Source: Alloalcanivorax dieselolei B5
GTDB lineage: Bacteria; Pseudomonadota; Gammaproteobacteria; Pseudomonadales; Alcanivoracaceae
Reading direction: 5' to 3'
Length of the DNA stretch: 64,000 nt
Assembly (NCBI RefSeq): GCF_000300005.1
Contig: NC_018691.1
Coordinates: forward strand, 1,178,001 to 1,242,000
A program made the position numbers and the translations under genes. The notes below the pieces were generated by a model. The model saw only the letters and a list, made by a program, of their open reading frames with translations. It had not been told where the DNA came from and ran no database searches. This document shows positions 55,818 through 62,158 of this stretch, one piece after another. The first letter of the stretch is position 1. Every line of letters starts with the position of its first letter.

Positions 55818-55849
55818 GGAGACCCCCTCCCGGCGTGGGGAGAAAGGGG

Positions 55850-56728
55850 ATGAACGAAGCGCAGTTGGTACAGATCGATAACGGAAAAGGCTATTCGGTG
55901 CCGGTCACCTGGGTGTCCGGTGGCGGCCCGGTCTTTCTGGTAATGGGCGCCCTCGGCGTGGCCGCGCCCTTCTACGACAAACTGGTGGCGGAACTGGCTG
56001 CGCAGGGCTGGTCGGTGGCGCTGATGGAGCAGCGGGGCCTGGGCAGCAGCACGTTGCGTCCTTCGCGACGGCATAATTGGGGCTTCCGCGACATCGTCGA
56101 GGACGACGTGCCGGCGGTGCTGGACTGGATCGCAAAAGAGGCGCCACAGCGGCCGGTTTACCTGTTCGGTCACAGTCTCGGCGGCCACTATGCGGCCATG
56201 TGCGCCGGCCTCTACCCGGGGCGTTTCGAGGGCATCGTCATGTGCGCCTGCGGCAGCCCCTGGATCACCGCTTATCAGGAAGCGGACCGCCGCCGGGTGC
56301 AACGGCTCACCCGCCTGATTCCGTTGTGCCACTTGTTGTTTGGCTATTACCCCGGTGACCGCCTCGGTTTCGGGGGACGCGAAGCGCGTGGTGTGATGAG
56401 CGACTGGCGTCACCTGGCGCTGACCAATCGTTATCGGGTCGGTGCCGATGACCGCCGGGTGGATCAGGCGTTGGCGGACTACACCGGCCCCGCCTTGATG
56501 TTGCGCATGGAGAATGACCCTTTTGCCTCCGCCATCGCGGTGGATTCGGTGTTGCGGCGCTTTCAGCGTCACCGCCCGGAAGAGCAGGTGCTGAGCGCCG
56601 GGGAGATCAACGACAAGGCTGACCATTTTCGCTGGGCCAGACGGCCGGCGGCGGTGGTGGCGCGTCTGGCGCGGTGGCTGGAAGCCGATCAGGCGCGGCC
56701 GGCCGGGGCGTCCGCGAGCCGAATCTGA
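55850..56728 (+). CDS. Alpha/beta hydrolase
   Basis: A 292-residue serine hydrolase without a signal peptide. The nucleophile elbow is LFGHSLGGHYAAMCAG. The acid is probably the Asp in RMENDPFAS, and His is in NDKADHFRWARR. The opening VSGGGPVFLVMGALG gives an oxyanion region. It resembles general esterase/lipase-type proteins; substrate unknown. It precedes the TPR-peptidase gene by 94 bases on the same strand. Confidence 0.82.
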   Translation: MNEAQLVQIDNGKGYSVPVTWVSGGGPVFLVMGALGVAAPFYDKLVAELAAQGWSVALMEQRGLGSSTLRPSRRHNWGFRDIVEDDVPAVLDWIAKEAPQRPVYLFGHSLGGHYAAMCAGLYPGRFEGIVMCACGSPWITAYQEADRRRVQRLTRLIPLCHLLFGYYPGDRLGFGGREARGVMSDWRHLALTNRYRVGADDRRVDQALADYTGPALMLRMENDPFASAIAVDSVLRRFQRHRPEEQVLSAGEINDKADHFRWARRPAAVVARLARWLEADQARPAGASASRI

Positions 56729-56822
56729 GACTACGTTCCCACAACGAACCGCCGCATACGGTGCGGTTCTCGTCTCGCACGGCTAACATGTCCCTCTTTT
56801 TTAAAGGCAAGGGGAGGGGAGC

Positions 56823-59800
56823 GTGCAGCAGGGAGTCACCGAAACCACGGATGCGTTGTGGCAAGCGCGCCAAAAGTACCAGCAGGGGCTGTACCGGCAG
56901 ACCTTCGATATTTTGCGTCGCGAACACGGTGAACCGGCGCAATGGCGAGACCCGGAATTGCAATTGCTGGGCGGCCGCACGCTGAACCATCTGGGCCGCT
57001 CCCGTACCGCCCTGGCACTGATGCAGCGCGCCTGGCGTGGCGCACCGGAGCGGCCGCGCCAGCGCTATTATCGGGGTTTTCAGTTGCTTGGCCGGCGCGG
57101 GCCCTGGGCGGCGCTGCGCTTCATCCAGCGGCACGGCGAGATCCTGTGCGAGGACGACCCTCATCTGCAAGGGCTGTGGCTGGGTCATTTCGCCACGCTT
57201 TACAGCATCTACCGCGATTGGGAACGCAGTCACGAATTCCTCGAACGGGCCCTGGCCCTGCATCCGAATTCCTCCTGGCTGGCGCTCGAACACGCCGTCA
57301 TTCTGCAGCGGGAAGACCGCTATCCGGAGGCCATGGCGGTATTGGCGCCGTGGCTGGCGTCACCCACGCCACCGCGTCCGGTGGTGGCCGCCGGGGCCGA
57401 ATTACTGCTGCTACTGGACCACCGCGACGACGCCGTGGCGTTGCTGGCCAAGCATGCCCCCCGAATGGAATCGGTGGAGCTGTGTCTGCGTCTCTATGAT
57501 CTGCTGCTGGAAAATGGCGAGCGCGACGCCGCCGCCGAAGCGCTGCAAAGAGCCCGCTACCTGGTGCCGGAACTGCCGGGCACCGTGGACCGGGAACTGG
57601 TCTACCGGGAGTTCGAGCTGCACTATGAGCGCGGTGAGCTGGATCAGGCACTGCAGGCCGCCGACGAACTGAAGGATCCGTTCGTGGTCAGTGTCCGCGA
57701 GAGCCTGCGTGAACGTCGTGACCAGCCGGCGGAGGCGTTGTTGCCGGTGGCGTTCGTGCGCCAGCATCACATGACCTGCGCGCCCGCCACGTTCGTGGCC
57801 CTGGCCCGCTACTGGGGCCACCAGTTCGACCACCTGGAGGTGGCGGAGCAGATTTGCTACGACGGCACGCCCGCTTCCACCGAGCGGCGCTGGATCAGCG
57901 AACTGGGCTGGCACGTGCGTGAATTCGAAATGGATCACGACATCATTCGCGCCTTGCTGGATCGGGGTGTGCCGGTGGCGCTGTCCACGGTGGAGCCCGG
58001 CAGCGCCCATATGCAGGCCATTGTCGGTTACGACTTGCGCAAGGGCGTGTACAAAATCCGTGATCCGTTTTCACCGCTGATCAGCGAAATGCTGATGGAC
58101 GGCGCCGCCAAACGCTACGCCGCCACCGGCCCGCGCTGCATGGTGGTGGTGCCGTCGGATCAGGCCGGGCGGCTGGATGGCATCGAACTGCCGGCGGCAC
58201 GCCTGTACGACCATTACCATGATTTGCAACTGGCGCTGGAGCGGCACGATCGGTCGGCGGCGGTGACGGCGCTGGAACAGTTGCGCCGGCAAGGCGCCGA
58301 ACATCGCCTGGTGTTGTGGGGAGAGCGCAGCCTGGCCGCCTATGACCACGACGCGCCGGCCTCGTTGAAGACCCTGGATGCGCTGCTGGAACGCTATCCG
58401 GAAGACCTCAATCTGATCGCCTCGCGGGCGGATATGCTCGGCGAACTGGGCCGGTTCCAGGAGCAGCGTGCCTATCTGCGTGAGCAACTGGAGGCCGGCC
58501 ACAGTCATCCGCTGCTGATTCAGACGCTGGTCCATGCCCTGCGCCACGACTATCGGGTGGCGCAGGAGACCCATCAATGGCTGGAGCGCTTGTTGCGCCT
58601 GGAGCCGACCCGCGCCACCGCCTTGTATTCCCTGGCCGGGCTGAACTGGGACGAGGGCAAACGCGAGCAGGCGTTTGAACTGTATCGGCTGTGCGCCTGC
58701 CTGGAAGACAAGGTGGAGCGCTACGCCCAGAGCTATTTCAAGGCGGCCCGCTTTTTGCGCCAGACCGACCAGGCTCTTGACTGGCTGCGCCGCCGCGCCG
58801 ACCGGCTTGGGCCATTGTCCGCCGATGCCCGGGTGACGCTGGCGTTGATGCTGGAGCAGTTGGATCTGAGTCGTGAAGCCGCGGAGGTGTTCGAGCAGGC
58901 TCTGAACGAGCATCCGCGCAACGTCTGGCTGGTCAATGAAGCCCTGATTTTCTATCAGAGCCGCTCTGATCTGGAACGCGCCCGGGCGTTACTGGCCCAA
59001 CGCCGCGCCGATCTGCCGGAAGCGATGGTGCTGGAGTTCGAGGGGGATATCGCCCGCCAGGCCGGGGATCTGGAGCAGGCGAGCGTTCACTTCCGGGCGC
59101 TGCTGGCGCTGCGTCCGTTCCACACCGGCGCGCTGCGTTTTGTCGCCGGCCAGCTACGGCGCGACGACAGCCTGGAGGCGGCGCTGGCGTTCATCGATCG
59201 CCAGGGTAGCCTGAATCCCCACGACTACGGCATTCGCGGCGTCAAGCTCGACTTCCTTGAGGCACTGCCGCCCAGTCAGCGCTGGCCGCAACTGGAGGCG
59301 TTGGCGGCGCAGGCCGGGGACGACAGCCGGGTGGCCCAGGCCATGGCCGATTGCGCCCTGGAGCGCGGCGATTACGCCCAGGCCCTGCGTTTCGCCGGCA
59401 GGGTGCTGGCGGAAGCCCCGGACGACCATCAGGCCCTGGTGGTCAGCGCGCGAGCCCATCTGCTGGCCCAGGACAACGACGCCGCGGCGCAGGCGTTCCG
59501 TGCCGCGATCCAGGCCAGCGTGGACCGGCCGGATGCGTTTCACGGCTTGCTGGAGTGTTATCCGGACGTGGCCGCCAAGCGCGAGGCGCTGGGCTTCATC
59601 CACCGGCAACTGTTGGAGCAGGTGACCTTTGGTGACGGTGTGCAGGCGTTCGTGGCGCTGGCCCGCCGCTTCCTCACGGATGACGAGGTGGCGGCGTTCG
59701 TGGACCAGGTCATCGCGGAGCGTCCGGACCTGTGGCAGAGCTGGCTGGCCGCCGCCCATTTTCATCGTGATGTACGCCATCTGGAGCGCGCCCTGGAGTG

Positions 59801-61370
59801 CATTCGGGAGGGTTGCCGGCGTTTTCCCCTGATCCCGCGCCTGTGGCTGGAAAGCGGTCGTTTGCGTTTGCTGGCGGACGACACCGAGGGGGCCGAGGCC
59901 GATCTGACCGAGTGTCTGCGGCAATCACCGGACTGGGTCCAGGCAGTGATTTCCCTGTCCGATGTGTTGGAAGTGCGGGGCGATTTTGATGCCTCCGAAG
60001 GGCACATCGACCGCGCTTTGCGGCGTTTGCCCCGGGAAGGCCTGCTGCTGGGCTACAAGTCCGATCTGCTGTGGCGGCGCGGGCAGCGCAAGGAGGCCTT
60101 TGACACCATGGTCCGCGCTTTGGCCGAGACCCCGGATTACCACTGGGGCTGGGACAAACTGGGCGAATGGGCGCGGGAAACCGATCGCCGTGACGAGGCG
60201 CTGGCACTGGCGGAACGTCTCGCCAACGAGCAGGAGAGCAACGCTGATCTGTGGCGCCACTGCTATCTGCTCACCGACCAGCAGGATCAGGAGCTGGCGT
60301 TCATCGAGCGGGCGCGGGCGCTGCGTCCCCACGACCCCTCTCTGGTGATCGACCAATGCGAGGTGTTGCACCGGATTGGCCGGGAAAAGGAGATCGAGCC
60401 GCTGCTGTCACGGGACTACTGGCGCGGGCCGCCGCCCACCGAGGTGCTGGGCTTCACCGCCTGGCTGCGTCATCAGCAGGGCGATCGCGACACCGCCATC
60501 AGCATGATGCGGGATCAGGTACTGCGCGATGATCCGGCGTTCTCCCGTGGCTGGCGTCTGCTGGCCACCTGGTACAAGGACGCCGGAGAGGTGGCACCCT
60601 GTCTGCACGCCAGCCGCCAGTTGGTGGCACTGCAGCCGGGGCATGCCGGTGCCCTGGTGGAAGCCGCCGAACTGATGCTGGAGGTGACCGAGGGCGACGC
60701 CCGGCGGGCCATCGAGGAGGAAGTGTCCGATTATCTTGAGCGGGCCCTGGCGCGGGACTATTCCGACACCTATATCCAACTGACGTTGCTGGATCACTAT
60801 ATGGACAGCGGCCATCCCGAGCGGGCGCGGGAACTGATGACCCGTATCCTGGTCGACGAGGGCAACGTCTTTGTGCGCGCCCGCCAGTTGCGGCTGGCGC
60901 TCGAGTCCGCTGAGCTGGACGCGGCCTGGCCGCTGTATCAAAGCGTGATCCGCGACTGGCGCGACAACAACTGGCTGCTGCTGGAGCCGCTGGCATGGGT
61001 GGCGACCGCCGGCGCCGATGCCCGCCAGGCACTGTGGAGGGCGGTTCCGGACTGGCTGGCCGACCCCGACATGCCCGACGCCGTGGTGGTCGTCTGGGCC
61101 CGGGCCCAGGCGCTGGCTGGCGTGCCCGGCGATGAACTGGTTGCTAACCTGGAGCGGTTACGCCGCGATCCGCGGCGCGGCGGGCTGTTCGGTTTCGCGC
61201 TGGAGTGGCTGCTGGACAGTGACGAGATCGATCCGGCGGTACGTCTGCGTCTGGTGCGTCGCCACTGGTGGCGCCTGCGCGGTCAGGAACGGGCCGCCAC
61301 CGCCGCCAGGCGCTTCCTGGCCGGGCAAAAGCGCTGGCTGTGGTGGCTGTGGCTGCGGGTGGTGCTGTGA
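56823..61370 (+). CDS. Giant TPR protein with embedded C39-like cysteine peptidase domain
   Basis: A 1515-residue protein with no signal peptide. Helical repeats of TPR type fill residues ~1-290 and again ~470-1300 (for example ALALHPNSSWLALEHAV). Between them, at ~305-450, lies a papain-like C39 domain. Its catalytic set is Cys319 in HHMTCAPATFVAL, His396 in GSAHMQAIVGYD and Asp414 in YKIRDPFSPL, with the spacing of C39-type double-glycine peptidases. No ABC transporter gene is near. The C-terminus is Trp- and Arg-rich. The GTG start follows GGGGAGGGGAGC. Its stop overlaps the murI start (GTGA). Peptide processing or a scaffold role is inference. Confidence 0.85.
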   Translation: MQQGVTETTDALWQARQKYQQGLYRQTFDILRREHGEPAQWRDPELQLLGGRTLNHLGRSRTALALMQRAWRGAPERPRQRYYRGFQLLGRRGPWAALRFIQRHGEILCEDDPHLQGLWLGHFATLYSIYRDWERSHEFLERALALHPNSSWLALEHAVILQREDRYPEAMAVLAPWLASPTPPRPVVAAGAELLLLLDHRDDAVALLAKHAPRMESVELCLRLYDLLLENGERDAAAEALQRARYLVPELPGTVDRELVYREFELHYERGELDQALQAADELKDPFVVSVRESLRERRDQPAEALLPVAFVRQHHMTCAPATFVALARYWGHQFDHLEVAEQICYDGTPASTERRWISELGWHVREFEMDHDIIRALLDRGVPVALSTVEPGSAHMQAIVGYDLRKGVYKIRDPFSPLISEMLMDGAAKRYAATGPRCMVVVPSDQAGRLDGIELPAARLYDHYHDLQLALERHDRSAAVTALEQLRRQGAEHRLVLWGERSLAAYDHDAPASLKTLDALLERYPEDLNLIASRADMLGELGRFQEQRAYLREQLEAGHSHPLLIQTLVHALRHDYRVAQETHQWLERLLRLEPTRATALYSLAGLNWDEGKREQAFELYRLCACLEDKVERYAQSYFKAARFLRQTDQALDWLRRRADRLGPLSADARVTLALMLEQLDLSREAAEVFEQALNEHPRNVWLVNEALIFYQSRSDLERARALLAQRRADLPEAMVLEFEGDIARQAGDLEQASVHFRALLALRPFHTGALRFVAGQLRRDDSLEAALAFIDRQGSLNPHDYGIRGVKLDFLEALPPSQRWPQLEALAAQAGDDSRVAQAMADCALERGDYAQALRFAGRVLAEAPDDHQALVVSARAHLLAQDNDAAAQAFRAAIQASVDRPDAFHGLLECYPDVAAKREALGFIHRQLLEQVTFGDGVQAFVALARRFLTDDEVAAFVDQVIAERPDLWQSWLAAAHFHRDVRHLERALECIREGCRRFPLIPRLWLESGRLRLLADDTEGAEADLTECLRQSPDWVQAVISLSDVLEVRGDFDASEGHIDRALRRLPREGLLLGYKSDLLWRRGQRKEAFDTMVRALAETPDYHWGWDKLGEWARETDRRDEALALAERLANEQESNADLWRHCYLLTDQQDQELAFIERARALRPHDPSLVIDQCEVLHRIGREKEIEPLLSRDYWRGPPPTEVLGFTAWLRHQQGDRDTAISMMRDQVLRDDPAFSRGWRLLATWYKDAGEVAPCLHASRQLVALQPGHAGALVEAAELMLEVTEGDARRAIEEEVSDYLERALARDYSDTYIQLTLLDHYMDSGHPERARELMTRILVDEGNVFVRARQLRLALESAELDAAWPLYQSVIRDWRDNNWLLLEPLAWVATAGADARQALWRAVPDWLADPDMPDAVVVVWARAQALAGVPGDELVANLERLRRDPRRGGLFGFALEWLLDSDEIDPAVRLRLVRRHWWRLRGQERAATAARRFLAGQKRWLWWLWLRVVL

Positions 61371-62158
61371 GCCGCCCGGTGTTGGTGTTCGATTCCGGTG
61401 TCGGCGGCCTGTCGGTGGTGACGGCCCTGCGCCAACAGGTGCCGGGCCTGCCGCTGGCTTATGTCTGTGACAACGCCGCCTTGCCCTACGGCACCAAGCC
61501 GGATTCCTGGTTGCTGCGCCGGATCGTTGACGTCTGCGTGGCGGCGGTGGCGGCCAGTGACGCCCGGGTGCTGGTGGTGGCCTGCAATACCGCCAGCACT
61601 CTGGCGCTGGAGGCGTTACGGGAACGGCTGGCGATTCCGGTGGTGGGGACGGTGCCGGCGATCAAACCGGCGGCGCGACTGAGCCGCTCCGGAGTCATTG
61701 CGTTGCTGGCCACCACCGCCACCGTGACGCGCCCCTACACCGACCGTCTGATCGAGGAATTCGCCGGCCACTGCACCGTGGCGCGCGTCGCCGCCGACCC
61801 GCTGGTGGCCCAGGCGGAACGCTGGCTGGCCGGAGAGCCGCTGGACGCCCGGGTGCTCGCCGAGTGTCTGGCGCCTCTGGCGGCGATTGCCAAGCTCGAT
61901 ACGGTGGTGCTCGGCTGCACCCATTTCCCGTTGCTGCGGGAATCCCTGGCCTCCATGGCGCCAGGCCCGGTGCACTGGATCGACTCCGGCGACGCCATTG
62001 CCCGGCGGGTGGTGCAGGTTGTGGGAGAGGTGTCCCAGTCAACGGTGTCCTCCGGCGCCTTCCTCAGCTGGGCCACGGCGCCGGACAACCCCGGCCTGGC
62101 CCGCGCCTTCTCCGGATTCGGCTTCCAGCCACCTAAACGGCTCAATGAGGCAAGTTGA
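61367..62158 (+). CDS. murI: Glutamate racemase
   Basis: A 263-residue enzyme making D-glutamate for peptidoglycan. The two catalytic cysteines are Cys73 in VVACNTAS and the second in VLGCTHFPLL. The opening VFDSGVGGLSVV carries Asp9. The start is GTG overlapping the TPR-peptidase stop, so translation is coupled. The last coding bases lie inside a long compound repeat, whose left arm supplies the final Ser codon and the TGA. Confidence 0.94.
   Translation: MSRPVLVFDSGVGGLSVVTALRQQVPGLPLAYVCDNAALPYGTKPDSWLLRRIVDVCVAAVAASDARVLVVACNTASTLALEALRERLAIPVVGTVPAIKPAARLSRSGVIALLATTATVTRPYTDRLIEEFAGHCTVARVAADPLVAQAERWLAGEPLDARVLAECLAPLAAIAKLDTVVLGCTHFPLLRESLASMAPGPVHWIDSGDAIARRVVQVVGEVSQSTVSSGAFLSWATAPDNPGLARAFSGFGFQPPKRLNEAS

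Follow-up and report, generated by a model that had tools for sequence, protein, structure and literature searches.

A giant TPR protein with an internal C39-type module in Alloalcanivorax and scattered relatives, probably a cysteine peptidase

The 64,000-nucleotide stretch of DNA analyzed here (the window) encodes a giant protein in which a C39-type, papain-fold module is set within TPR solenoids. On balance, we favor reading it as a cytosolic cysteine peptidase that would cut a client captured by the solenoids, with proteolysis as its probable chemistry. The long solenoids would bind one client protein, or a small number of them, and offer a segment of the client to the embedded active site, where the segment would be cut by means of Cys319, His396, and Asp414, with Gln314 in the oxyanion hole. 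The gene is rare, but its active site is unaltered in the scattered relatives that carry it, and the product is therefore probably a working protein-cutting enzyme.

The first-pass annotation had placed a C39 peptidase between long TPR arrays, a layout which both the Pfam profiles and the AlphaFold models reproduce. Many TPR families were matched along the protein, which classes as tandem TPR and as alpha-solenoid, and the module is Pfam Peptidase_C39_2 (PF13529; residues 308 to 415, E = 1.8e-6, 29 bits where 24 are required). The same cut-off was passed by L040, L041, and L046, the three relatives scanned whole. The module modeled alone from a 6-row alignment reached a pLDDT of 85.3 and a pTM of 0.84, and residues 1 to 1200 modeled from a 15-row alignment reached 89.4 and 0.72. 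In the longer model, 17 helices lead into a C39 fold at approximately residues 301 to 455, after which 44 helices follow up to residue 1195 (Table 1).

When the module was compared with the PDB by Foldseek, the top match was ComA (3k8u, E = 1.2e-3, TM 0.62 by target and 0.38 by query) and the second a pseudomurein endoisopeptidase, followed by more ComA entries, PCAT1, and an AMS/PCAT protease (6mpz also matched), with AvrRpt2 at rank 19. No Foldseek match to the module was found at E ≤ 0.001, which counts against the peptidase reading, and the rmsd among the best 18 matches ranged from 4.2 to 20.9 Å. For the model of residues 1 to 1200, the 50 matches listed were led by the solenoid proteins Ski3, IFT-A subunits, Ctr9, and OGT, and by title none of the 50 was a solenoid with a papain-fold insert. 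A PDB sequence search with the giant protein gave one match only (E = 0.18).

No signal peptide was seen by eye in the giant protein, as the first-pass annotation had stated, which suggests that the protein is cytosolic. The chain opens with TPR helices in the AlphaFold model, and its N-terminus lacks a lipobox. By eye, the N-termini of the relatives carry no obvious signal sequence either, the start of L021 being uncertain. Also in line with the earlier claim, a Pfam scan of six neighbors of the giant gene found no ABC exporter.

Table 1. Features of the giant gene, its flanks, and two short C39_2 proteins. Positions refer to the window unless a locus is named.
Feature	Position	Strand	Evidence and remarks
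Alpha/beta hydrolase gene, upstream flank	55835..56728	+	Pfam; adjoins murI in 8/9 congeners without the giant gene
Purine-rich stretch, candidate ribosome-binding site	56810..56819	+	Sequence directly 5' of the GTG start
Giant TPR-C39-TPR gene	56823..61370	+	1515 aa; ORF and translation, dN/dS, full-length relatives
N-terminal TPR solenoid, residues 4-297, 17 helices	56832..57713	+	Pfam TPR, AlphaFold, helix count
C39-type papain-fold module, residues 302-452	57726..58178	+	PF13529 above cut-off, AlphaFold, Foldseek
Gln314, presumed oxyanion-hole residue	57762..57764	+	17/17 family proteins
Cys319, presumed nucleophile, first residue of helix 319-330	57777..57779	+	17/17; AlphaFold
His396, in strand 394-404	58008..58010	+	17/17; AlphaFold
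Asp414, after strand 409-413	58062..58064	+	17/17; AlphaFold; Ser in 20/24 short relatives
C-terminal TPR solenoid, residues 459 to ~1400; 44 helices up to 1195	58197..61022	+	Pfam TPR; AlphaFold to residue 1200; helix count
Basic C-terminal tail with aromatics, last 30 residues, net +6	61278..61367	+	Charge across the family
Glutamate racemase murI, downstream flank	61367..62158	+	NCBIfam/Pfam on longer ORF; sequence
L086 short C39_2 protein	L086, 1327-2028		234 aa; C39_2 42.6 bits; PA2778 only 22.5 bits
L089 short C39_2 protein	L089, 1315-2022		236 aa; C39_2 43.2 bits; no PA2778 score

The complete set of Cys319, His396, and Asp414 described in the first-pass annotation is present at exactly these positions, and Gln314 is conserved as well. 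We take Cys, His, Asp, and Gln to be the catalytic residues of the Peptidase_C39_2 module, and the oxyanion-hole role of Gln314 is presumed from the C39 peptidases. The succession of Cys at a helix, His in a strand, and Asp after a strand is the papain/C39 order. All four residues, together with Gly348 and Thr349, are kept in every one of 17 distinct family proteins (the window protein included; near-identical Alloalcanivorax copies omitted), and the expected conservation of the catalytic residues was thus borne out.

The C39 module is the most conserved part of the family. Eleven of the 12 invariant columns in the 17-row alignment lie within it, in an alignment that includes L043 (a 739-aa piece) and L048 (cut by a contig end), so that columns past approximately residue 700 could hardly be invariant. 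Because of this bias, the fair comparison is the mean pairwise identity of 13 rows with L043, L046, L047, and L048 removed, which reaches 47% in the module as opposed to 24% in the N-terminal solenoid and 26.5% in the C-terminal one. Two TPR stretches (residues 626 to 645 and 995 to 1014) are also well kept, with the same bias from the partial rows L043 and L048, and are candidate docking sites. The giant gene is under purifying selection, as dN/dS among the four Alloalcanivorax orthologues ranges from 0.050 to 0.066 over its full length and from 0 to 0.035 within the module. Constraint is looser at residues 1441 to 1515 (the final 75), where two of the six pairs give values of 0.55 and 0.74 that rest on few changes.

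The last 30 residues carry a net charge of +3 to +9 in all 14 core members of the family, and of 0 and +2 in two divergent ones, the tail of L048 being unreadable because its sequence stops at a contig end. In each of the 14 core members, the basicity of the tail reaches at least the 94th percentile within its own protein. Their last 18 residues hold two to five aromatics, and the tail sequence varies. An amphipathic membrane anchor was considered and rejected, as the hydrophobic moment of the tail is ordinary (mean percentile 0.61 over all 16), and the claim is therefore limited to a basic tail, which may hold the giant protein near membrane or nucleic acid.

The window genome is a single contig of 4,928,223 bases, its relatives by name being Alloalcanivorax balearicus, A. 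xenomutans, and Alcanivorax sp. 24, and its genus belongs to the Gammaproteobacteria. Full-length orthologues with 95 to 98% identity occur in three other congeners, so that 4 of 13 genomes, the window genome included, carry the gene, and a query with the C39 part found it in 5 of 46 genomes from the bacterial family. Farther out, the giant gene is rare, with at least 3 of 369 class genomes, at least 4 of 398 phylum genomes, at least 11 of 244 order genomes, and at least 3 of 15 and 5 of 196 genomes in two further family samples. These samples include the window genome and genomes already known to carry the gene, and the counts are lower bounds given the candidates scored per genome (2 in the class, up to 6 in the phylum, and up to 11 in the order sample). 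A module profile search with up to 10 candidates per genome returned the same three giants in the class sample. All four carriers in the phylum sample fall within the Gammaproteobacteria, the class of the window genome.

Distant copies measure 1407 to 1748 aa by longest open frame, besides L048 at its contig end and L043 in two frames. The first set of distant copies has 22 to 50% BLASTP identity to the window protein, the most divergent (L046 and L047) aligning over 248 and 200 residues. In genome G917, the copy is split over two overlapping frames (L043, 5591-10533), and this gene is thus broken or mis-sequenced. Carriage as mobile-element or phage cargo was also considered, and no match was found in plasmids (E ≤ 1e-10), phages, or viral contigs.

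The place of the gene in the chromosome points to a unit of one gene. In eight of nine congeners without the giant gene, the alpha/beta hydrolase gene lies directly beside murI, the aligned parts of the two being 129 to 188 bases apart. For the ninth congener, the stretch examined yielded no hydrolase. One gene has thus been gained at that site or lost repeatedly, and the giant gene appears to come and go as a single unit in either case. The purine-rich stretch ahead of its GTG start is likely its ribosome-binding site. At the other end, the likely GTG start of murI shares four bases with the end of the giant gene, and murI may therefore now be translationally coupled to it.

The first-pass annotation had proposed a search for conserved neighbors across related genomes. 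All-against-all BLASTP of the ORFs at 14 and then 17 loci revealed no specific neighbor common to unrelated carriers, and the lack of a conserved partner gene among the carrier loci counts against the peptidase reading. Strong neighbor matches were confined to close relatives (L044 with L048, and L046 with L047), and the remaining ones were judged generic by eye and set aside (histidine-kinase, LysR, helicase, GST, AMP-ligase, and short-chain dehydrogenase types). Twenty flanking proteins scanned against Pfam included RsmI, a SpoU methylase, an inositol monophosphatase, NA37, AmoC, GGDEF/EAL proteins, a histidine kinase, nSTAND3, several DUFs, and others, with no common theme, and two of them had no Pfam match at all. 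The nSTAND3 protein (L023, 15054-17321) matches PADLOC PDC-S73 and is encoded in genome G151 with one gene between it and the giant gene.

Some papain-fold enzymes are acyltransferases, which counts against the peptidase reading; the module might be a transferase (acyl, amino, or ligase, via a Cys thioester) that modifies a TPR-bound client in the manner of BtrH or phytochelatin synthase. We regard this as unlikely, although it is the main rival. BtrH_N, whose papain-like fold is related to that of the giant's module, is grouped near families C39 and C70 in PMC10318531, where BtrH is described as serving antibiotic biosynthesis. The window genome itself encodes a BtrH_N/DUF4872 protein (154.5 bits) between acyl-CoA-synthetase-like ORFs, and this protein touches PF13529, which weighs against the peptidase reading; it carries DUF4872 and no TPR match, unlike the giant. 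On the other hand, the best solved fold matches of the module in Foldseek are peptidases, and the 20 flanking proteins scanned with Pfam include no carrier protein and no obvious partner in biosynthesis. The BtrH_N/DUF4872 protein has 359 aa (L064, 1180-2259), and by eye there is one acyl-CoA-synthetase-like ORF on either side of it.

Joining a protease to an alpha-solenoid also recalls Csx29 and separase, in which the protease has the CHAT/clan CD fold and not the papain fold. A single gene could thus encode a sensor-protease whose solenoid senses a foreign or stress signal and switches the peptidase on, similar to TPR-CHAT/Csx29 or related immune proteases, but this appears quite improbable. 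The patchy distribution of the giant gene, present or absent as a single gene, is consistent with such a role, and so is the solenoid-plus-protease layout, as Csx29 is described as a CRISPR-linked protease joined to an alpha-solenoid (PMC10028731). However, PADLOC scans of the giant and three relatives gave weak matches only, all in the TPR parts, and a scan of 20 flanking proteins from 10 loci (flanks of the window, L046 to L048, and L078 to L080 left out) gave one strong and one weak match. No CRISPR context appeared in these scans, unlike for Csx29, and nothing was found on plasmids, phages, or viral contigs.

The fold family shared with ComA and PCAT1 raises a further reading, in which the giant processes double-glycine leader peptides as the C39 exporters do. 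In Foldseek, the module has the same fold as these exporter peptidases (PF03412), and it has Gln, Cys, His, and Asp in the order of the ComA active site. Unlike ComA and PCAT1, however, the giant has neither a fused transporter nor one among the scanned neighbors, and its module is set in TPRs. No PF03412 match was found in the window genome and no PF03412 line for the giant protein up to E = 0.1, in a genome profile search of imperfect sensitivity, as the PF13529 run missed a PA2778-like protein that scores 29.9 bits in Pfam. Small double-glycine peptides, which the first-pass annotation had suggested looking for, were not enriched either. Beside 16 copies of the gene, a loose leader-like pattern gave 45 matching ORFs against 49.6 in shuffled flanks (up to 4 kb on each side, one match per stop codon, base composition alone preserved in the shuffle), and no pair was alike between loci at E ≤ 0.01. 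We therefore hold this function to be very improbable. The earlier proposal of a stand-alone peptide-processing scaffold survives as a stand-alone, apparently cytosolic TPR protein with an intact C39-type site, and a link to double-glycine peptides is not supported. A pseudo-enzyme scaffold in which the C39 module only binds is hardly credible, since the catalytic set is kept in all 17 family proteins, even though inactive papain-like domains do exist (PMC10318531).

The reading of the giant as a peptidase that cuts a captured client would give an unusual architecture. C39_2 proteins are described as single-domain peptidases in PMC10318531, and no precedent for a TPR-C39-TPR arrangement was found by title or abstract in a literature search that covered few subscription journals and preprints, which counts against the reading. 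If the reading is true, a conserved giant with a peptidase in the middle of its coil would represent bacterial solenoid-directed proteolysis without an operon partner. Since there is no operon partner, the client would have to be a protein common to very different hosts or one of outside origin. A wider picture, which is speculative and which we consider rather unlikely, is a rare one-gene system across the Gammaproteobacteria: a cytosolic, solenoid-caged papain-fold protease passed singly between chromosomes with neither a mobility gene nor a fixed partner. In this picture, its TPR coil would sense or capture a conserved host or foreign protein for the C39 module to cut, and the protease would be a papain-fold counterpart of TPR-CHAT or separase. 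The giant raises a testable question, namely what gets cut when Cys319 is present.

The combination of C39 and TPR is already known in a short form, the PA2778 lipoproteins (NF033920), which are the most clearly defined of the known relatives and in which a C39_2 module is likewise followed by TPRs; the giant architecture differs from it in location, size, catalytic Asp, and context. With the 17-row module profile, 60 of 369 class genomes were matched at E ≤ 0.001, three by giants and the rest in open frames of 100 to 405 aa, and seven of the first eight short relatives scanned pass NF033920. Among 24 short proteins, 22 have 303 to 346 aa, and a simple pattern finds a lipobox in 20, unlike in the giant. 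At the Asp414 column, they have Ser (n = 20), Thr (n = 2), a gap (n = 1), or Asp (n = 1), in a mixed alignment where the two divergent giants are displaced at column 349 and where Gln is missing at column 314 from one of the 24 short rows. The giant scores 37.5 bits against NF033920, where the cut-off is 150, and its best stretch is in the TPRs (residues 972 to 1068). As location, size, Asp414, and context all differ, the giant does not belong to the PA2778 family, though it is broadly related to it.

In a FastTree of the modules, the giants form one clade with a support of 0.95 for the core and 0.90 with the two divergent ones (L095 and L102 were left out of the mixed alignment and tree, and L092 yielded no ORF). 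Two short C39_2 proteins, L086 and L089, join the giants with a support of 0.996 and stand closer to them than the PA2778 proteins do, which means that the giant's module may be nearer to these two than to PA2778. Unlike the giant, both lack a TPR match and have a signal-peptide-like N-terminus by eye, and they are unnamed in Pfam and NCBIfam.

A separate PA2778 protein (292.5 bits) is encoded in the window genome approximately 0.3 Mb from the giant gene, although both the PF13529 genome search and the 17-row module profile missed it. A PA2779 gene adjoins the PA2778 gene in both examples inspected (L088 and the window genome), whereas the giant gene has no such neighbor. PA2779 was considered as a substrate of the giant, as it occurs in 9 of 20 carriers, but was rejected because in the window genome it lies beside the separate PA2778 gene. 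In this pair (L118, 587-1920), PA2779 has a possible cleavage site, a Gly-containing spot ahead of its hydrophobic segment.
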